A stretch of 64,000 nucleotides of DNA, taken from contig JAJSLM010000002.1 in assembly GCA_026127925.1 (NCBI GenBank), forward strand, positions 124,001 through 188,000, in the 5' to 3' direction. Made by a program: the position numbers and the translations under genes. A model generated the notes under the pieces. That model searched no databases and was not told the origin of the DNA. It saw only the letters and a program-made list of their open reading frames with translations. The number at the start of each line of letters is the position of its first letter. Position 1 is the stretch's first letter. Positions 53,653-64,000 of this stretch are shown here, piece by piece. The DNA comes from Thermoplasmatales archaeon. GTDB taxonomy: Archaea > Thermoplasmatota > Thermoplasmata > Thermoplasmatales > Thermoplasmataceae.

Positions 53653-55203
53653 ATGCGTGTTTTCCTTCCCGTTATTCTCCTGGTTCTTATCCTCTGTTTT
53701 ATAGGAGTGCAGCCAGCCGCGAATCATACCGAGGCTGTGAATGCAGGTATCGTCATCCCGTCCGCTGTAAACACAGGAACGATATACACGCACGAGCCTG
53801 CACCTATGGGGATCGCAGATTACGGCATCGGTCCTAGAGGGGAGCCTTATGAATACAATACAACATCCTTCATGGGCGTCGCAAGTGTGGATTCCCTGAG
53901 CACCTATAATTCTTCACTCAATTACAGCTCTTACTATGGCGGGCCTTATGGAATGACTTTTCAGTTAAACGCCGTTCTTGTTGCAGTGTCCGGCGGAGCC
54001 TCCTATGCTTACTGGTCGCAGAACGTTGCTTTTATTAATACGTCTTCGAACAGAGTAAGGTTTGAGGACAATGTATGGAACTATACATCCGAAGGCGCGG
54101 AGATGTACAATTCCACAGTCTCCGGCAGCGGGAAGATAGAAAACTTCTCGGGCGGGGACTACTACTACGACTTCGCTTCAAAATCTCTTCCAGGCAACAA
54201 CATGGAGCTGAGCTATCCTTCCACCGTAGAGCTGAGGATGAATGCTACGGTTGTCAGCGGTCATCCAGAGATCGTATTCTCGTATAACAGTGGTCAGGGG
54301 TGGCAGGTTTATGACAGTGCGGTAATAAAATTCCTCAACACATCCGGAACTCCGGAGTTCCGCGTTGATGGATTCACGTACAGTCCGGTAGGGACTTACT
54401 ACGATGCTGAGCTCATCATGGGAGGTCCGGCCGGTGGCTCGCACACCGGGATCGTGTCCTCTTCGGTTCTCTTCCAGCTTGATTACTGGAACGGCCACAA
54501 CTACCAGATGATAACGAACGCATTCAATTTCGGCTCAAATACCCAGGAGGGCATCTACGGCGCTGGCGACTCTGGCATATATTCCAAATCGAATGGATCG
54601 CTATACGCTAAAATAACGGCTGGGAACTCCACTCTGGGGCAGATCTACAATTCCGGAGATATCGGTATTTTGAACGTGACATCAAACGTACCATCGGGAT
54701 ACCTTATGATCAACGGCACGGCTTACAACTTCACTGGCGAAGACGTTAACGTTACGCTATATCCTGGTGAATACGCCTTCCAGTTATACACATCGTCGAA
54801 TGTGCTTGTAGCTTCAGGCACCTTAAACCTTTCCGGTGGAGAGTACCTTCCAATGGTCATCACAGGCAGTTATGCCGTGACGTTTTACGAGACCGGATTA
54901 TCTCCCGGTACATCATGGTCGGTCACGCTCAACGGAACGACGGAATCATCAACTACCGGCATGATAATTTTCATGGTTTCCAACGGAACCTATTCATACA
55001 GGGTGAATCCTGTTCCTGGGTACACCGCTCTTAATGATAGCGGAAATATGTCAGTTGTCGGAGAAAATGTAGAATACAATGTAACATTCAAGGCAGAGAA
55101 AGGCGCTCCTGTCAACCTGGCCCTTCTAATTGGGACTTTTGCTGCGATCCTCGTGATTGCTGTGGTTCTTTCTGTATTTCTCAGAAGGAAGGCGGGGAGA
55201 TAA
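53653..55203 (+). CDS. Thermopsin-family (A5) acid protease-like surface protein
   Basis: 516 residues from ATG 53653. Signal peptide RVFLPVILLVLILCFIGVQPAA. The catalytic-domain hallmark EPAPMGIADYGIG and the following TTSFMGVASVDSLSTYN, FQLNAVLV and YAYWSQNVAFI match thermopsin, the acid-stable pepstatin-insensitive peptidase of acidophilic archaea. Its catalytic residues are not firmly established, so intactness cannot be judged. After about 400 one Ig-like module (FYETGLSPGTSWSVTLNG), a membrane helix (LALLIGTFAAILVIAVVLSVFL) and a basic tail follow. Extracellular, membrane-held digestion of proteins is the likely role. Many N-x-S/T sequons. Confidence 0.87.
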   Translation: MRVFLPVILLVLILCFIGVQPAANHTEAVNAGIVIPSAVNTGTIYTHEPAPMGIADYGIGPRGEPYEYNTTSFMGVASVDSLSTYNSSLNYSSYYGGPYGMTFQLNAVLVAVSGGASYAYWSQNVAFINTSSNRVRFEDNVWNYTSEGAEMYNSTVSGSGKIENFSGGDYYYDFASKSLPGNNMELSYPSTVELRMNATVVSGHPEIVFSYNSGQGWQVYDSAVIKFLNTSGTPEFRVDGFTYSPVGTYYDAELIMGGPAGGSHTGIVSSSVLFQLDYWNGHNYQMITNAFNFGSNTQEGIYGAGDSGIYSKSNGSLYAKITAGNSTLGQIYNSGDIGILNVTSNVPSGYLMINGTAYNFTGEDVNVTLYPGEYAFQLYTSSNVLVASGTLNLSGGEYLPMVITGSYAVTFYETGLSPGTSWSVTLNGTTESSTTGMIIFMVSNGTYSYRVNPVPGYTALNDSGNMSVVGENVEYNVTFKAEKGAPVNLALLIGTFAAILVIAVVLSVFLRRKAGR

Positions 55204-55263
55204 ACAGAGCGTGCCCCTAAACCGATATGGACGGTATGGCAGGGACCAAAATATAGCGAAATA

Positions 55264-55273
55264 CTTATATATT
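55264..55273 (+). promoter_or_regulatory. TATA box of the GYD-like gene
   Basis: CTTATATATT is centred about 31 nt before ATG 55299, indicating a leaderless or near-leaderless transcript independent of the thermopsin gene. Confidence 0.5.
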
Positions 55274-55298
55274 TTCAGCTGTTTTCTAATCGGTCAAT

Positions 55299-55580
55299 AT
55301 GGACATGGTAATTCTAGTTAAAATTAAGAGGATACCCACAAAGAAGGAATGGGAAGGTGCACAGAAGATTGTCGATAAGGCTGTCAAGAGTGGGATAAAG
55401 ATTGAGAATTACGACACATACGGAGCATATGATTCTGTCGCAGTTGTCAAGGGTTCGAATAAAGGCGAGGAAATTTATCTCCGGTACGTTCACGCCGTTA
55501 AGGAATGGGCTGATGTGCAGACGCTTCCGATCATTGACCAGAAGCTCATGGATAAGATCAGCAAGGAATTCATTAAGTAA
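55299..55580 (+). CDS. GYD-domain-like small protein
   Basis: 93 residues, ferredoxin-like fold. The segment KSGIKIENYDTYGAYDSVAVVKGSNKGEE resembles the GYD pattern (xxxGxYDxVxxxxxxD) of short dimeric alpha+beta barrels. The order is strand (MVILVKIKRI), helix (KKEWEGAQKIVDKAVK), strand, strand, helix (LRYVHAVKEWADVQTLPII). Function unknown. Alternative: a stand-alone RAM/Lrp-type effector domain. It is read as a single gene with a downstream hairpin and T-run. Confidence 0.6.
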   Translation: MDMVILVKIKRIPTKKEWEGAQKIVDKAVKSGIKIENYDTYGAYDSVAVVKGSNKGEEIYLRYVHAVKEWADVQTLPIIDQKLMDKISKEFIK

Positions 55581-55975
55581 GGCGATCCTCTGGTCGCGAG
55601 ATAACGAAAGGCATCCTTCTCAAATGAGAGAAGAATTGAATTTTTTCTTATTTGCAACAGAGGTTCCGATGTTCATGCATATCGCATTACGCTCCTATGG
55701 CAGAAGAGCGGAATGCACAGAATAAAACATTACATCCGATCATGCTGATCTCGATTCACGGGCGCAGCTATCATATTGCCAAATCTGGTTTCAAACACCC
55801 TTACAGCATATCGACCTATCAATTTTTTTTGGTCGTCTTTCCATTTTAGATCTGCCCAACGTTTTTAGAAAACATCTAATGTATGGATACTTGGCAGAGA
55901 GGAATTATAAATACAGAGGCAGAGAGTGTTCTAATCAATTTATTAAAGCAGTGAATCAAATGGTTTTGGAAAGGA
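55581..55975. other. Intergenic stretch with one terminator-like hairpin
   Basis: The 395-nt gap shows no gene. A hairpin and T-run (55616-55649) probably end the GYD-like transcript. Three in-frame stretches in different frames here lack start context and family features. A C-rich tract near 55790-55840 holds nothing recognisable. Confidence 0.4.
55616..55649 (+). terminator. Stem-loop followed by T-run
   Basis: CTTCTC (55616-55621) pairs with GAGAAG (55628-55633) around AAATGA, and a T-rich run follows (55639-55649). It ends the GYD-like gene 36 nt after the stop. Confidence 0.5.
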
Positions 55976-56614
55976 TCACTTTTTCCTCCAGATCGTTATC
56001 GGCACCACTGAACCTATGATGAGGATTGCGAGGATCACGCCAAGTATCACGTATATCTCTGTGGACGTGATCGACGGCGAGGATCTCTGTTTGGGTGGGG
56101 AGTGAGGTGGGGAAGGTGGAAGGGAAATTATCTTGGAAAATACAACTGGCTGAACGACGTTCGAGCCGTTGACAGTCACTCCGCTATTGGGCGGCGTTAC
56201 ATACGAATACCCAGGGACAGGATTGACCGAGTAAAGATACGTCCCATTCGCAGCCGAGAATACAATCGTTTCGATCGTTGAAGTTCTGGTTGTTCCATTA
56301 AAATTAATAGACCATAGCGTACCCGGAGCGAGGCCAGATTCCGTGAACTTAACGGTATATTCCACCACCGTTGGACTGATATTTTCATGGGCGGTGAATG
56401 GGAAAACGGAATTTATCATGGAATCCGCGTGATTCCCGGTGATTATCGTGCTCATGAGATCATCGTTGATATTCTCACTTGTGCTTATCTTCATTCCGGT
56501 GTTTCCGTGGCATGTGCATGGGAACAACGAAGCGATCGTGAATATTACAATCATAACAATGAAATATTTGCGAAATAGATCCCTAAAGCCGAGTCTTAAA
56601 CGACCGATCTTCAT
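55976..56614 (-). CDS. Short surface protein: signal, single Ig-like module, membrane anchor
   Basis: 212 residues. The N-terminal KYFIVMIVIFTIASLFPCTCHG (about 15-36) acts as signal. Only about 55 residues separate it from one FTESGLAPGTLWSINFNG module (about 88-168). A Pro-rich stretch (LPPSPPHSPPKQ) and a C-terminal helix (TEIYVILGVILAILIIGSVVPITIW, RKK) follow. It thus has anchor and module like the neighbouring proteins, but no large binding domain. Either a minimal stalk protein or a remnant of a larger paralogue. Opposite in orientation to its neighbours. Confidence 0.72.
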   Translation of the reverse strand: MKIGRLRLGFRDLFRKYFIVMIVIFTIASLFPCTCHGNTGMKISTSENINDDLMSTIITGNHADSMINSVFPFTAHENISPTVVEYTVKFTESGLAPGTLWSINFNGTTRTSTIETIVFSAANGTYLYSVNPVPGYSYVTPPNSGVTVNGSNVVQPVVFSKIISLPPSPPHSPPKQRSSPSITSTEIYVILGVILAILIIGSVVPITIWRKK

Positions 56615-57046
56615 ATTTTAAATCCTTACACCTAATGATCTAAAAGGATGTTTATCTACTTTATCTTTTCAAATAGCCCTTAGCTCTATCTTTATTAATC
56701 CATGAAGATCGAAATGCGCTCTTTCTCTACGTATTGGTTGCGCTTAGTGATCCGGGTGGTCACGTGTCTCGATCTTCATCGGAATTACCCGCGTTCCGCA
56801 GGCACCCGTTCAACCCGGATATCATCTTATGCATTTTTTCTCATATATTTACACATGCGCAATGAGGAACGCGGGAACGAGTGTTACGGATCCAGTTACG
56901 TTCATACAATACGAGCTTGAAGAAAGGTATATAATGGGGCAGGAGTCCAGATAGAAGGATTTTTTTAATCTCTTTCCAGTTCATGAGGTGATGATATGGT
57001 AGGCAATGATACGTAAAGGACAAAGGAGGAGAAAACAAAGATCGTC
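56615..57046. other. Gap holding an 11-bp inverted repeat and no supported gene
   Basis: The 432-nt region has no supported coding gene. It contains the ATGAAGATCG element in inverted copies (annotated separately) and a GTGATGA sequence near 56991 that lacks a matching D box, so a C/D RNA is not supported. AAGGAGGAG at 57019-57027 is the only Shine-Dalgarno-like sequence before the next start. Confidence 0.4.
56702..56779. repeat. 11-bp inverted repeat enclosing two hairpins, possible structured RNA
   Basis: ATGAAGATCGA (56702-56712) and TCGATCTTCAT (56769-56779) are perfectly complementary. The inside can form a GCGC/GCGC hairpin and a GTGAtCC/GGTCAC hairpin with one bulged T. The same ten bases begin the neighbouring minus-strand gene (its ATGAAGATCG, 56614-56605), so the pairs may equally be copies of a gene start. 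Confidence 0.4.
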
Positions 57047-58894
57047 ATGGCGGTCCGGCAAACTCATCACGGGGACGGCGGTTTTATAAGCGTTGGCGGA
57101 AACGGTTTAACATTCTATAAGGGTGGAATTTTTCAGTCACCGTACAATACTCTGCCGGGATTTTTGGAATCCGCTTCATGGAATGGCCAGGAATTTTTGG
57201 TAGGGGGTTCAACTTACTTCTATCAGAAACCCATCAACAGAAATAATTATGGATTCAATGATGGTCCCCTATTAGCTTTGTATTACCCCGAGGATAATAC
57301 GTTGGTAAACGAGACGAGTATTCTTCCTTCTTTTCTCCTTCACAATAATGGCACAATTGTTCAGACCGTGTGGAATGGATCGGTGTTTTACATACTCGGA
57401 GAGTATGGAAATGTGTCAGAATCCTCGGAGAATATAGTATTATTTTCGTACAATCCATCAACGAATCAACTACAGAATATGACCCATCTTCTTCCTAGTA
57501 CTTTGAAAGCTCATATGACCGGCATGATTTATACAAACTACGGACTATTTCTGCTACTCTATGGATATTATGGGGCTAACTTGACACTTCTGACCCCTTC
57601 AGGTCATGTAGAAGATCTATCCTATATACTGCCTCCTAATTTTATATTCAACGACTGGAGCACTGAAGGAACCCCGATGACATTTGCAAACGGTCTACTT
57701 GCAATTGCTGGCAACTACGTGTCTAATAATACAGCAGATATTATAACATATAATCCGCAGAACGGCACGCATATCAATTATGCGCCGATAATGCAGAATG
57801 TGACCGGTTATGTAACATCCGTTGTGTACGATTTGGGTTTTTACGTTATCGTTGGATCAACTGATGGTTATAATTCTCCCAGTCCTGCGATCCTCTGGGC
57901 TCTATACCCCTTGGAAAATACGATTTATAATCTGTCTGATTTAGTTCCTTCAAATTTCACGCAAATAACTACTGCAGCCTCACACGATAATCAGATATTT
58001 ATGTCCATAAGCTTCGTGGGAGGTGTATACTTTGGGGAGCTATCTTTAGCGGCGGCTTTTCCAGTTACGTTCCTGGAATCCAATCTTCCGTCAGGATTGA
58101 AATGGTTTGTTAACATAACAGAGAGCAATGGAACGACTTATGATTCAGGAGCGATCTCAGGATCGTCATACATTTTCTACTTGCCTGACGGGACATACTC
58201 ATACACCATCGCATCGTCTGAGAGATCATCAGTTCCGATACAATCCCGCGGATCGTTCACTGTCGATGGCACACCGGTATCTGAATCCGTGGTCTTCCTA
58301 TCCATATTCCGGTACACGGTAACCTTTTCCGAAAATGGTCTTCCGAAGGGAACAGAATGGTTTGTGAACTTAAGTAACGGTCGATCGTATCATTCTGTAT
58401 CCGATATCATCTCCTTCCAGGAACCGAATGGAATATACGCATACACGATCTCAACACCTGACACTTCTTACAAACCACCTTCATCAGGTTCGTTTACAGT
58501 AGACGATTCCTCGGTTTCAGTATCTGTAAAATTCTTGCAGGTAGATTACACGGTAACCTTTTCTGAAAACGGTCTTCCGAACGGAACGGAATGGTTTGTG
58601 AACCTTAGCAATGGCCAGTCATTCTCATCAACAAACAGCACGATATCATTCTCGGTTCCCAACGGAACGTACTCTTACACAATCACAACAGTCTCTGGTT
58701 ATCGATTCCATGCATTATCCGGATCGATATCTCTCACAGGCAGGGGCTTCTCAAAGAGCATAACATTCCCAACTACGGATAGATCACCTGAAAAATCCGG
58801 GATATCCGGTGCATCATTCTACATAATCATAGTCGGAGTCACAGCTGCAGTCGTCGGTGCAGTCGTTGCGATAATGATTAGAAAGAAGAGGTAA
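57047..58894 (+). CDS. Surface beta-propeller protein with three Ig-like modules, apparently lacking its signal peptide
   Basis: 615 residues. From MAVRQTHHGDGGFISVGG the N-terminal half (about 1-335) is a kelch-like propeller, with recurring WNGQEFLVGG, WNGSVFYILGEY and VVYDLGFYVIVG. Three modules follow: FLESNLPSGLKWFV, FSENGLPKGTEWFV and FSENGLPNGTEWFV. Then a C-terminal helix (ASFYIIIVGVTAAVVGAVVAIMI) and RKKR. The topology needs export, yet no signal sequence precedes the propeller. The in-frame codons upstream are K-x-E-rich and a stop lies 33 nt before the ATG. Probably a 5'-truncated gene, though an atypical exported protein cannot be excluded. Confidence 0.72.
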   Translation: MAVRQTHHGDGGFISVGGNGLTFYKGGIFQSPYNTLPGFLESASWNGQEFLVGGSTYFYQKPINRNNYGFNDGPLLALYYPEDNTLVNETSILPSFLLHNNGTIVQTVWNGSVFYILGEYGNVSESSENIVLFSYNPSTNQLQNMTHLLPSTLKAHMTGMIYTNYGLFLLLYGYYGANLTLLTPSGHVEDLSYILPPNFIFNDWSTEGTPMTFANGLLAIAGNYVSNNTADIITYNPQNGTHINYAPIMQNVTGYVTSVVYDLGFYVIVGSTDGYNSPSPAILWALYPLENTIYNLSDLVPSNFTQITTAASHDNQIFMSISFVGGVYFGELSLAAAFPVTFLESNLPSGLKWFVNITESNGTTYDSGAISGSSYIFYLPDGTYSYTIASSERSSVPIQSRGSFTVDGTPVSESVVFLSIFRYTVTFSENGLPKGTEWFVNLSNGRSYHSVSDIISFQEPNGIYAYTISTPDTSYKPPSSGSFTVDDSSVSVSVKFLQVDYTVTFSENGLPNGTEWFVNLSNGQSFSSTNSTISFSVPNGTYSYTITTVSGYRFHALSGSISLTGRGFSKSITFPTTDRSPEKSGISGASFYIIIVGVTAAVVGAVVAIMIRKKR

Positions 58895-59397
58895 TCTTTC
58901 CTATAATTTACTCATTCTGCATGCTGACTGTTAGGTTCCAAATCGATAGCTGCAGTACATTCCTATCAGAGAGTCAAATCACTATTTCGGTAACAGAGAT
59001 CTAAAAGGATCAAACGATGATTCTTGAAAGTTTTCAACCACAATTGACGCGTCCTTTATCTGAATTTTCCCTTCCCTTCATTGGGCGGAACTATCTTGTC
59101 TGTGATCTGCACAATCAATGGCACATGTGGTTCGGGCATATCCAAAAATTATGAACTGGTAAGTAATGCTCGAGATCACTCGGACATGTCATGAAACATT
59201 AGACGCTCTACACCATATATGAAATTAATGGTAATCCAAGGTACAGTCTGGCGAATATGTCGCGCCACAGGTACTGGAGGTAAATGCCACAATATCTCGG
59301 AAAAGCATTACCCCTGTAGAAATATTTATAGAGCAAGTTCAAGAAGGGCGCTCTAAAATTTCTTGCGGAGTATTGGTTATTAAGGGGATCTTGCGTT
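58895..59397. other. Gene-poor stretch, nothing recognisable
   Basis: This 503-nt gap lacks a supported frame. A peptide-like stretch around 59326-59400 (SKFKKGALKFLAEYWLL in one frame) looks protein-derived but has no start context and may be a gene remnant. A TATA-like TATTTATAG occurs at about 59321-59329. No tRNA or obvious attachment site was found. Confidence 0.35.
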
Positions 59398-60036
59398 TCA
59401 ACTACCGAAATTAAAGTTATGTTTCCTAACATCCTCTACATCTGCCTGGACATCTTGAGGCACATATAAGGTTATGATGCCATCAATCCATCTTCTCCAG
59501 TTAATTTCCTCCTCCGTGTTGTTCGGTATAACACTGACGTTAAGAACATGGGTTTCGTGTGTTTTGTTGCAGGCAAGAGCGAAGAAACCTAATTCGTATA
59601 ACTCGTTTCGTATATCTGATGCGGAAGCATTGTTAGGTATAAAGATTTCAATACTGCCGCTGTGGTGAATGAGGCTCAGCTCTCCTTTGCTAAAAGCCTT
59701 TGTCTTCGGAACAATCGCTTCCAATGCCGCCAGACTTTCATGATCCACACTCATGCGCAAAAGACCAACTTGGTTAATTGAGGCATATCTTCTTTTTACA
59801 TCTTCCTTACGCTTTTCTTCTCTCTGGATCTCCAGTTTGCGTTTTCTTTCTGCCTCTTTTAAAATTCTTCGTTCCCTCTTGATCTTTTCGATCGCATGCC
59901 TGACACTCTGCAGTGAGTCTGTGTGAAGTCTGGCGGCGATCTCTCCTGTGGAAAGGCCCTCATCGAGAAGATTCTCGATCTTATTATAGTTATAGGATCT
60001 TCCGCGAACATTTTTTACTTTGCCTTTATTGATCAT
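59398..60036 (-). CDS. HTH/coiled-coil DNA-binding-like protein of unknown function
   Basis: 212 residues. A basic N-terminus (NKGKVKNVRGRSYNYNK) and a helix-turn-helix-like segment (IENLLDEGLSTGEIAARLHTDSLQSVRHAIEKI, about 20-52). A highly charged coiled coil follows (KRERRILKEAERKRKLEIQREEKRKEDVKRRY, about 53-85). The C-terminal alpha/beta domain (90-212) includes GSIEIFIPNNASASDIRNELYELGFFALAC. No known family is recognised. The TGCAT array just upstream is a good candidate binding site. The composition suggests a plasmid, virus or chromosome-maintenance protein. Transcribed alone. Confidence 0.66.
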   Translation of the reverse strand: MINKGKVKNVRGRSYNYNKIENLLDEGLSTGEIAARLHTDSLQSVRHAIEKIKRERRILKEAERKRKLEIQREEKRKEDVKRRYASINQVGLLRMSVDHESLAALEAIVPKTKAFSKGELSLIHHSGSIEIFIPNNASASDIRNELYELGFFALACNKTHETHVLNVSVIPNNTEEEINWRRWIDGIITLYVPQDVQADVEDVRKHNFNFGS

Positions 60037-60059
60037 TATAACCCTAAAGGCATTCTATT

Positions 60060-60200
60060 TGCATATTTTTATCTTTCTACATATATATACAAACAATATA
60101 CATTGTATTGCATTTGTCTATGCATTACGCTGCATTAAATTTAATTTTAATTGCATCATCGTTGAACCTGTTGTGCATCAAAATTGCATCATAGCTGCAT
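60060..60200. repeat. Helically phased TGCAT repeat array, iteron/operator candidate
   Basis: Eight TGCAT copies begin at 60060, 60109, 60121, 60131, 60152, 60174, 60185 and 60196, giving spacings of 49, 12, 10, 21, 22, 11 and 11 bp. All but the first step fall on one or two turns of the helix, so the seven right-hand sites face the same side. The consensus is about TTGCATYAT. They flank the minus-strand TATA of the HTH gene. Confidence 0.6.
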
Positions 60201-60600
60201 TATCTTTATCTATTTTTTAAGTAACCTTTCCTTGGCCATCCACGGAAAAGGAATGAAAATCAACGGAAACAGACTTGCAGAAACTAAAAATTTTCTTATA
60301 GGTAACGTTTAAAAAGATATGACTACGCAACGTCATTTTAAAAAAATGCAACAGAAATCTAATAATCGCGTATCATTGCCCTTGGAATTAACCTGTGCTC
60401 TTGGTGGGTATGGATTCACGTTGCCTGCACAGATCTCCAATTCAGTTCGTCAGTGTTAGAGATGCATAGATGATAATCGACAACAAAGGCGACCTAATTA
60501 CCTAGTCCATTATTATGTGTCTCAGAAATCATGGGAAACCCGCGCTAAAACGCTGTCTTATAGCCCATCAATGCCTCCAAAACCCTCATATCAGGAAATA

Positions 60601-60610
60601 TTTTTATATC
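60601..60610 (+). promoter_or_regulatory. TATA box of the penicillin-amidase gene
   Basis: TTTTTATATC is centred about 25 nt before ATG 60631, typical of a leaderless transcript. Confidence 0.6.
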
Positions 60611-60630
60611 TCGATGTAGTCTATAGTATT

Positions 60631-63600
60631 ATGAAAGCAAAACGTTTATTATTGACAATGTTGCCTGCGGTTCTGATAGCTGTCATAATGATATCCGGAG
60701 CCTTTTCTGCAGCCCAGTTTACACAGCAGAGATCCGTGCAGGCAAAACCGGAACTTGTTTTTAATAACCAGACACTAAACCTGAGCGGTTTGGAACACAG
60801 CGTGAATGTTGTTCAGGACAGCAACGGCGTATACCACATATACGCCCAGGACAACCACGATCTGTTCTATGCCCTCGGCTTTGTGCAGTCCGAAAACAGA
60901 CTGTTTGAGATGGAGACATACGCCCTTGAAGGAATGGGTCTCATGTCAACATTTTTCGGCCCGTCTTATCAGCCGTATGATGAATTTCAGGCGCTTACAG
61001 GCGCGCCTCTGACAGCTCAGAGGGATTGGAATTCCGTTGTGCAGAACAGAACCACAAATGCCACCGACAGCCTTACATATGCCGCACTTACTGCATACGC
61101 AGAAGGCATAAACTCATACATAAACTACACGCGAGATATCGGAGTTCTTCCGACAATGTTCGCCCTTACAGGTACAACTCCATTTTACTGGTCTCCTGTA
61201 TACTCCTTCGCCGTTCAGGAGGTCATGACGCAGTCTCTTGCCTTCGGAACGAATCCTCTTGTATTCTCCCTCGTCTATTCTCTTCTCGGGAACCAGACAT
61301 ACGACCTGATACCGACATTCTCCCCGGTACAGACTTATTATTACGGTGGCTATACAGGCGCGCCTAACCAGAGCGTTCTGGCAATGTCGCAAAATACGTA
61401 TCCGGTAAATGCGGCGCTGAGATCGCTTATCGTCAAGGTTATGGAGGAGTTCGATCCCCTCTCGATCATAACAAAGAACGATACTCTCGACATGTCATAC
61501 TGGCTCCCGCATGGGCACAGCAACGAATGGGTCGTTGCAGGGAACAGAACAGCGACAGGCTACCCAATACTGACCGGTGGCCCTGTTCTGGCGTTCTCAC
61601 TCCCGTCAATATGGTTCCAGGTTCAACTTGTCGATCCCTCTTTTGACGTCTACGGTGTCGTTCTCCCCGGAGCTCCCTCGGTAATCATAGGCTTCAATCG
61701 GAATATCGCATGGACACTTACCGATGTGCAGGACATATCGAGCCAGAACTTCTTCTTCTCACAGACGGTGAACAACGGAAAATACTTGTGGAATGGCTCT
61801 TATTTCCCGGTGAAGCAGTATGACATAAACGGCGTCGAAGTCAACTGGACAAACCTGGGACCGATAATGGCACTCAACGGTACTACGGCACTCGTTATGG
61901 ACTGGCTTGGAAATCGAGTGTCCAATGAGATAGGCATCCTTCTTGACATCAACACGGCTTCAGACTGGTCGCAGTTCCGTTCGGACCTGAGCATGTGGGT
62001 CGCTCCGTTCCAGAACTTCGCCTTCGCTGACAGAAACACTATCGGAGATATATCTGCAGGGATGTATCCAATATTTTCTTCATCCAGCGGCATTCCTTAC
62101 AACCCTGCCGGGGTTATGCCAGGGAACGGCGAAGAGTACATCTCAGGTGAAATTCCTTACAGCATGATACCGCATGCGGTCAATCCGCCATCTGGATACA
62201 TTGTATCCTCGAACCAGAGGCAGGTGGGCCCGTCATATCCCTACTGGCTCGGAAACACGCTCACCAACAGCCCCGGTTACAGGGCAGAGCTTGAGGCGTC
62301 ATATCTCGCTACGCACCCGAAAGTGAGTGTGCAGGACATGATGAATCTTCAGCTGAAGAACTTCACAGACTATGAGGCTGTCCTGGCGATGCCCTACATT
62401 CTCTCCGATCTTCCTCATACCGGCTATTCCGGTGCGGTATCGAGCATGTTCTCCTCGTGGAACGATAGCATGTCGCCCTCCTCGAAAACTGCGACAGTAT
62501 GGTTCTTCTTTTACGAGAACCTCTTCAACGATACATTCATACCCTATCTCACAGAGAAGGGATGGATACCCTCATACGAGAATGTCCTTGGATATCCGTC
62601 GGGCCTGAGCGGAAGCCTTCCCAACACTTCAGGATACTCACCCATGGACATGGTCATGCTTCAGGTGATCGAACAGGGAACCGCAAAGCCATTCTCGAAT
62701 ATGAGCGTGGCTTCGCTCATGTCCGAGGCTGCAAACCAGACCATGTCGTATCTTAACTCGAATTTCCCCAGCGGGAACTACACATGGTCGAATTTCTACG
62801 GCTTCGTCTTTCCGAATCTGTGGGGCATATCTCAGTTCAATGTCGGCCCTCTCGTGACAGGTGGAGATTTCAACACACCGAACGACGCAGGCGGAATATC
62901 CCCGGACTTCCCGCAGGGTGGCCAGAGCTGGGTCATGGTTGCGAACCTCTCGAACCTCTCGAATTCATACGGTGTATACCCCGGGGGGCAGAGCGAGAAC
63001 CCCGAGAGTCCGCTATATGCGAACTATGTCAGTGACTGGGTATCCGGCGATTACCTTCACCTCCTCTTTGTTTCCAATTACACTCTCTTTTCCTCAAGCG
63101 AGGTCATGGATCGTTCGCTCTTCGTTCCTGACAGTGTGCCCGGCGATATGACAGCTAAGATTGTTGCATATTCGGGCGAGATCATCACCGGAACGGTGAA
63201 CGCCACAGGATACGACTTCGGTGTGTACATCGAACCGGGCGTGACCAACGTCTATGTATTCCACGCCCGTGTTTTCGGAGCCAACGATCAGGGCATAATT
63301 GCTGTGGACACACATGGCATATTCATCGTCGACAGCAATATAAGTCACAACGATCTCCATCCGAATCCGGCCATACCTCTTAACACAGGCCTCGGCTTAT
63401 ACGGTGTATCCGATTCATACGTGATCGGTAATATCGTGACCTATGACGGAGCCGGAGGCATCGTTGTCGCGAACACTGGAAAGATACCCACGGGACTCCC
63501 GTTCCCTCAGGAGAACATGTCAGCGAACAACAACTTCATCGCGCAAAATTACGTTGCCTATGACGCAGACGGATGCGGTATCGTCATAGCGGCGTTCAAC

Positions 63601-64000
63601 GCAGGATCGACGGTTGCAAACAACTGGGTCTTCAATAACACGGTCATGGGAAGCATGCAGCTCAACAACGGAACCTTCACTGGACCGTATGTCGGTACCA
63701 TCGTGGTTGCTGCAGACACACCCGGTACGATGAACACAGGAACCGTAGTTCTGGACAACACGGTGATCGGAGGTCTCGAATCGAGCATAGTCGTCAACGC
63801 CCAGGCTCCAACAGCTGAGGTTAATGGTGTGGATATCATAGGGAACGTCCTGATACATGGTGGATTCCAGAGGGTCAACGCACCACCCTTCAGCAATGCT
63901 TCCGATCTCAACCTCCCACCTGCTCCTAATGCGATCGCGGTCTACGGGAACTACCAGCCAGGCATGCCCTTCTCACCTACAGTTGTGAACGTCTTCGCCT
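60631..64000 (+). CDS. Penicillin amidase (peptidase S45)-family surface enzyme fused to a beta-helix region (3' end outside window)
   Basis: The frame from ATG 60631 is open for all 1123 complete codons to the window end. Signal peptide RLLLTMLPAVLIAVIMISGAFSAAQ (about 5-29). The S45 core follows: NVVQDSNGVYHIYAQDNHDLFYALGFVQSENRLFEMETYA, the autoprocessing nucleophile Ser297 in LPHGHSNEWVVAG, TGGPVLAFSLPSIWFQ, VVLPGAPSVIIGFNRNIAWTLTDVQD and an RGG-free linker. The usual GSN at the nucleophile reads HSN. From about residue 870 repeated short strands (GIGVYGVSDSYVIGNIVTYDGAGGIVV; NNFIAQNYVAYDADGCGIVIA; NNWVFNNTVMG) form a right-handed beta-helix/NosD-like region. Exported, probably an acid-stable amidase with a surface-binding domain. 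Usual S45 proteins end near 800. Confidence 0.88.
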   Translation, partial: MKAKRLLLTMLPAVLIAVIMISGAFSAAQFTQQRSVQAKPELVFNNQTLNLSGLEHSVNVVQDSNGVYHIYAQDNHDLFYALGFVQSENRLFEMETYALEGMGLMSTFFGPSYQPYDEFQALTGAPLTAQRDWNSVVQNRTTNATDSLTYAALTAYAEGINSYINYTRDIGVLPTMFALTGTTPFYWSPVYSFAVQEVMTQSLAFGTNPLVFSLVYSLLGNQTYDLIPTFSPVQTYYYGGYTGAPNQSVLAMSQNTYPVNAALRSLIVKVMEEFDPLSIITKNDTLDMSYWLPHGHSNEWVVAGNRTATGYPILTGGPVLAFSLPSIWFQVQLVDPSFDVYGVVLPGAPSVIIGFNRNIAWTLTDVQDISSQNFFFSQTVNNGKYLWNGSYFPVKQYDINGVEVNWTNLGPIMALNGTTALVMDWLGNRVSNEIGILLDINTASDWSQFRSDLSMWVAPFQNFAFADRNTIGDISAGMYPIFSSSSGIPYNPAGVMPGNGEEYISGEIPYSMIPHAVNPPSGYIVSSNQRQVGPSYPYWLGNTLTNSPGYRAELEASYLATHPKVSVQDMMNLQLKNFTDYEAVLAMPYILSDLPHTGYSGAVSSMFSSWNDSMSPSSKTATVWFFFYENLFNDTFIPYLTEKGWIPSYENVLGYPSGLSGSLPNTSGYSPMDMVMLQVIEQGTAKPFSNMSVASLMSEAANQTMSYLNSNFPSGNYTWSNFYGFVFPNLWGISQFNVGPLVTGGDFNTPNDAGGISPDFPQGGQSWVMVANLSNLSNSYGVYPGGQSENPESPLYANYVSDWVSGDYLHLLFVSNYTLFSSSEVMDRSLFVPDSVPGDMTAKIVAYSGEIITGTVNATGYDFGVYIEPGVTNVYVFHARVFGANDQGIIAVDTHGIFIVDSNISHNDLHPNPAIPLNTGLGLYGVSDSYVIGNIVTYDGAGGIVVANTGKIPTGLPFPQENMSANNNFIAQNYVAYDADGCGIVIAAFNAGSTVANNWVFNNTVMGSMQLNNGTFTGPYVGTIVVAADTPGTMNTGTVVLDNTVIGGLESSIVVNAQAPTAEVNGVDIIGNVLIHGGFQRVNAPPFSNASDLNLPPAPNAIAVYGNYQPGMPFSPTVVNVFA

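Follow-up and report, generated by a model that had tools for sequence, protein, structure and literature searches.

What does a regularly spaced series of TGCAT sites do directly upstream of a small archaeal gene, and is it there to start replication, to mark DNA for inheritance or to control the gene itself? The locus belongs to a Thermoplasmatales archaeon with a genome of 1.73 Mb in 17 contigs, and the window analyzed here, a stretch of 64,000 nucleotides (64 kb), corresponds to positions 124001-188000 of contig 2. From the letters alone, a first-pass annotation had proposed a candidate origin, partition or autoregulation system. The follow-up reported here describes a previously unnamed small DNA-binding protein of an acid-loving archaeon, which is paired with sites spaced by one helical turn, a pair that is kept in three relatives.

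The array and the gene behind it

The features of the locus, which comprises the gene and 170 bp of upstream DNA, are as follows, in positions of the window.

59398..60036, minus strand: open reading frame of an HTH, coiled-coil and alpha/beta protein of 212 aa, with homologues at 28-32% identity and a structure model
59887..60007, minus strand: conserved HTH core RGxSY...GLSxxEIA...SxQSVRHAIEK, about residues 11-50, taken from the family alignment, three helices predicted
60060..60064, minus strand: solitary eighth TGCAT, near the expected transcription start, its placement relative to the TATA box being presumed
60080..60089, minus strand: TATA-like element TATATATATG (minus strand), between array and start codon, a consensus match read from the sequence
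60109..60135, minus strand: second, promoter-proximal group of three units, with TGCAT at 60109, 60121 and 60131
60152..60200, minus strand: set of five 11-bp units, with TGCAT at 60152, 60174, 60185 and 60196 and a degenerate TTGAA at about 60162-60166

The seven TGCAT sites of the first-pass annotation, at steps of 12, 10, 21, 22, 11 and 11, were recovered exactly (starts on the plus strand at 60109, 60121, 60131, 60152, 60174, 60185 and 60196), and an eighth copy is added at 60060. The proposed repeat unit, TGCAT, proved right as a core and too short as a unit, since in the direction of the gene the unit is longer and reads T-[A/G]-ATGCA-[A/G]. In addition, the 22-bp gap of the window array is occupied by the imperfect unit TTGAA, hence 60152-60200 can be read as five units at 11 bp.

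The array region is the most A+T-rich part of its neighborhood (GC 0.34-0.37 around 60000-60250 vs 0.39-0.54 elsewhere in 55000-64000), and TGCAT is a common pentamer, with 75 copies in the 64-kb window, which would be in keeping with a chance cluster in an A+T-rich gap. However, TGCAT reaches 8 copies per 160 bp, while the next-best non-homopolymer pentamer of the window reaches 6, and a whole-genome scan with a three-site pattern (TGCAT, gaps of 3-10) matched at the window array only. The comparison with shuffled sequence that had been called for also went in favor of the array, its density and spacing never being equaled in 2000 dinucleotide shuffles: the 200 bp upstream of the gene hold eight ATGCA (shuffle mean 1.85) and four ATGCA neighbors at 10-12 bp (shuffle mean 0.03), and neither value was ever reached. 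Because the arrays, and with them the spacing, are conserved in three other genomes (see below), chance clustering is refuted and its probability is negligible.

The protein was first described as an HTH followed by a charged coiled coil and a further C-terminal domain, and the structure model agrees, with a three-helix HTH at residues 17-50, a long charged helix to residue 84 and an alpha/beta domain at residues 90-169 (mean pLDDT 66.8). The HTH core is modeled as three helices at a pLDDT of about 90 and contains most of the 18 invariant columns of the family alignment; the alpha/beta domain has the order beta-alpha-beta-beta-alpha-beta in the model, at moderate confidence. In fold searches with the full-length protein and with the HTH only, the nearest folds to the HTH were of the NarL/LuxR type and of sigma region 4, without statistical significance, and the C-terminal domain had no match. 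The protein family, which had gone unrecognized at first reading, likewise had no entry above threshold in Pfam, NCBIfam or PADLOC. Weak Pfam matches to PilM_2, XPG and DUF7629 lay below the cut-off and were rejected.

Homologues, their arrays and their surroundings

Protein and profile searches of 117 genomes of the order returned, besides the window's own protein, homologues in three genomes (G050, G098 and G048) from two other genera, at 28-32% identity, and the profile search of the order gave no members beyond those four. A weak class-wide profile match in G180 (E 0.007), at a locus without the array, was discarded as a further family member. All four genes, from three genera, have a [T][A/G]ATGCA[A/G] array of 11-bp period that points to the gene and immediately precedes a TATA-like element. 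In G050, units lie at -120, -109, -98, -77 and -66, with a shifted unit in between; in G098, they lie at -84, -62, -51 and -40, with a degenerate unit at -73; and in G048, five units at -200 to -156, some of them decayed, are followed after a 20-bp gap by units at -136 and -125. Sets of five units are present in the window, in G098 and, twice, in G048. Shuffles reject chance for every array, the weakest case being the decayed G048 copy (P 0.005 for count and 0.009 for spacing).

Loss of the spacing in orthologous upstream regions had been named as an observation that would count against the initial proposal. The proposal survives it, because the pair of gene and array is conserved in three other genomes, with an 11-bp array in the same orientation at all three homologues; the same conservation supports its claim of a multisite DNA-binding unit. 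Among 400 genomes of the class Thermoplasmata, a strict three-unit pattern matched at the gene in the window genome and in G098, at a gene-less locus of G048 and at one apparent chance position, the reversed control pattern giving one match in these genomes. Taken together, the four conserved arrays and the pattern matches across the class indicate that array and gene belong together. The gene-less array (G048:C1:1546214-1546305; L142 9215-9305) has the same layout, with five units, a 20-bp gap and three units. It is flanked by mercury-type genes on one side and by an IS3-like transposase on the other, and an HTH gene no longer accompanies it.

The G050 homologue (369 aa; L015 2010-3119) is uninterrupted, and the window protein is without most of the C-terminal half of this relative. 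On visual inspection, the alpha/beta module occurs a second time in the longer relatives, and the window protein stops inside this second copy; G098 and G048 have an in-frame TAA near the end of the first module, leaving G050 alone intact. Hence the HTH, the coil and the first module are kept in all four copies, and the C-terminal half is broken in three of them. The TAAs, one in G098 (L012, G098:C45, 11122-12234) and one in G048 (L006/L014), which belong to different genera, lie within about eight residues of the same alignment position. Beyond them, both frames stay open and still similar (28% over 278 aa), and the TAAs could reflect independent decay, a split gene or readthrough. For the conserved N-terminus of the G048 homologue (L006 1978-2019), no ATG, GTG or TTG is found upstream and CTG is the sole start candidate, which would fit decay of this copy or initiation at a rare start codon. 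The G050 protein carries an HxH motif (HVHIEY) and a tyrosine-rich C-terminus (YSYVYDYYKK), both absent from the other members.

The four copies differ in their surroundings. The window gene has ordinary secreted-protein genes as its neighborhood; the genes scanned there include neither an integrase nor a transposase, and no flanking repeats resembling integration sites were found at 58700-61000. At 60517-63999, a penicillin-amidase-family gene is fused to a beta-helix-like C-terminal part, the two being separate genes in another family of the order; synteny via this gene is uninformative, because the same-genus genome holds only a distant copy. The G098 homologue sits in a defence island, whose members (L012 3759-10287 and 16022-19397) are defence-like: NurA, HerA-like, large ATPase-like and PD-Lambda-5_A-like genes and two Dam-type methyltransferases. 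Transposases and sugar genes surround the G048 homologue. The G050 homologue is found on a 4.5-kb low-coverage contig fragment, which also carries a CopG-type RHH gene and has no circular overlap at its ends; it was the only contig returned by a contig search with the family profile, as JAJZAR010000128. A neighboring ORF of G050, considered as a plasmid-specific gene, turned out to be a piece of a widespread multicopy protein.

It had been suggested that gene and array be sought on plasmids, and collections of plasmids, phages and viruses yielded no relative: viral contigs gave none in single-sequence and profile searches, and tblastn against plasmids and phages gave insignificant matches only. 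The array pattern at first had many matches in viral contigs, mostly coding-looking repeats, and a stricter pattern returned five viral contigs, in which the repeats are exact tandem copies and no relative of the HTH protein is near. These phage contigs (L118, L172, L171, L170 and L092) carry TGATGCAAAAT-type repeats of period 11, which in L118 and L172 come after the end of an integrase-looking gene.

The presence in four of the 117 genomes, the four unrelated surroundings, the repeated interruption and the orphan array together suggest a module of a mobile element left in chromosomes. We therefore lean towards a mobile origin, and the window copy is probably a chromosomal remnant. This copy could still act as a regulator, because its array and its HTH are intact.

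Comparison with stbDR-StbA of R388 and other systems

The closest known arrangement is stbDR-StbA of the bacterial plasmid R388 (stbABC operon; structure 7PC1), a parallel that was selected among known site arrays and then tested. The R388 stbDRs are two sets of five 9-bp repeats with 2-bp spacers, which StbA binds in vitro and requires for plasmid stability (PMC3098194). In addition, StbA represses PstbA 50-fold (PMC3937220), and StbB is dispensable for the stability of R388 (PMC3098194, PMC3937220). Upstream of stbA in R388 (NC_028464), ATGATGCA[A/G]-type units are located at -172, -161, -150 and -139 and, in a second group, at -87, -76, -65 and -43. Similarly, 9-bp TTGCATCAT/ATGATGCAA repeats with 2-bp spacers form the array upstream of the archaeal gene, and both systems have a ATGATGCAA-type unit, an 11-bp period, sets of five, the same orientation and a location upstream of an HTH gene. 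The shared six-base core and the natural one-turn period are suggestive, not conclusive, of a shared mechanism.

The proteins themselves are unlike each other. StbA of R388, at 141 aa, includes a low-complexity tail, in contrast to the coiled coil and alpha/beta modules of the archaeal proteins. No meaningful alignment of StbA with the archaeal protein was obtained with hhalign, pair z-scores between the HTH cores were at background level (-0.8 to 1.8), and 7PC1 was absent among the 50 fold matches listed. Unlike R388, the archaeal locus has neither an StbB ATPase nor StbC beside the gene and no conjugation genes nearby, and the ORFs beside the four copies include no StbB-like Walker ATPase or ParA-like gene. 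The archaeal protein may work like StbA; the resemblance lies in DNA and gene layout and not in the protein.

Arrays of other StbA plasmids share the 11-bp period and have a G-rich unit. In the Stb/TraD arrays of NAH7-type Pseudomonas plasmids, a TGCA core recurs every 11 bp upstream of an StbA homologue; however, the unit is TAGGGTGCAA, G-rich before the core, and stbB follows. KfrA-type coiled-coil proteins, such as that of the IncU plasmid RA3 (PMC7783346), invite comparison through an N-terminal HTH, a long charged helix, plasmid maintenance and autoregulation. Unlike the archaeal protein, KfrA is not known to have an alpha/beta domain. In the AspA-ParB-ParA system of pNOB8 (PMC5120986), AspA is likewise a DNA-binding protein of an archaeal element; its sites lie upstream of the gene that encodes it, and it coats DNA. 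In contrast to the direct-repeat array described here, which has no partner gene, AspA has a winged HTH, uses a 23-bp palindrome with spreading and is partnered by ParB and ParA; a ParA gene in the operon was found at none of the four archaeal copies.

Candidate roles of the pair

The explanation that fits best, and in which our confidence is evenly balanced, is a module for DNA maintenance and autoregulation that belongs to a mobile element of Thermoplasmata and has, in the window genome, been left behind in the chromosome. The N-terminal HTH probably binds [T][A/G]ATGCA[A/G], and neighboring copies of the protein would lie side by side on one helix face, every 11 bp, joined by the coiled coil and the alpha/beta domain. 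Sites one turn apart next to a TATA-like element fit a protein that fills them cooperatively; once filled, the array, which adjoins the TATA box on its upstream side, would repress transcription of the gene itself and, in the intact element, the same nucleoprotein patch would form a centromere-like mark for stable inheritance, like StbA on the stbDRs, perhaps without a dedicated motor. Binding of the protein to its own array is highly probable. By analogy with StbA, autoregulation is probable, and a role in segregation, marking the element for inheritance, is plausible but short of likely. Against this explanation stand the absence of protein homology to StbA, the lack of an StbB- or ParA-like gene beside any copy, the negative searches of plasmid, phage and viral collections, and a window neighborhood without integrase or transposase in the genes scanned. 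Within the initial proposal of origin, partition or autoregulation, which is partly supported, the last two fit better in view of the agreement between the array and the R388 stbDR sites. There is no support for a chromosomal origin: the gene is missing from 113 of the 117 genomes and, of the two Orc1/Cdc6-like genes, the nearest (C2:208058) lies about 24 kb away and the second is on another contig, C1.

An origin of another kind would be that of a small plasmid, now integrated or fragmentary, with an iteron-type initiator that opens the adjoining A+T-rich DNA. Direct repeats do adjoin the gene, where the A+T content of the neighborhood peaks, and the 4.5-kb G050 contig holds the longest copy, which is uninterrupted, together with its CopG-like RHH gene. 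We nevertheless consider this improbable: no Rep initiator domain was found above threshold in Pfam, NCBIfam or PHROGs, which gave generic HTH-type weak matches only, the HVHIEY motif is confined to the G050 protein and the G050 contig is without circular overlap. Moreover, known initiators usually have iterons of about 17-22 bp. The protein could instead be a plain autoregulator, binding cooperatively to its own array to set its own dose, perhaps acting on a few other promoters, and having no part in inheritance. In line with this, the array of each of the four copies immediately precedes a TATA-like element, and the window copy, among ordinary secreted-protein genes, retains its array and HTH despite a shortened C-terminus. 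However, a total of eight to ten sites is high for a simple repressor, G048 has a second array without a gene, and patchy presence and repeated C-terminal interruption suit the gene of an element better than a host regulator; we thus regard a purely regulatory role as rather unlikely.

The relation of the protein to StbA can be seen in two ways. It could be a true but very diverged member of the StbA family, transferred between bacterial plasmids and archaea with its site kept, and the agreement of unit, period, sets of five, orientation and gene position with the R388 stbDRs points that way, as does the HTH at the start of both proteins. Homology is nonetheless undetectable even between the HTH cores, the architectures differ and StbB is missing, making common descent very doubtful. 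We more readily, though still only tentatively, entertain an archaeal motor-less plasmid segregation system, in which an unrelated HTH protein, independently of StbA, came to bind the same kind of 11-bp-phased, centromere-like ATGATGCAA array.

For genetic tools in acidophilic archaea, the pair of protein and array would provide a promoter/operator part. The nature of archaeal centromeres has been listed as an outstanding question (PMC5120986), and little is settled about how plasmids segregate in Thermoplasmata and other euryarchaeal lineages; the compact protein with its array is a directly testable candidate, with a clear bacterial functional parallel in stbDR-StbA of R388. If the resemblance to the stbDRs is convergent, one-turn phased ATGATGCAA-type arrays would be a recurrent way of marking plasmid DNA.
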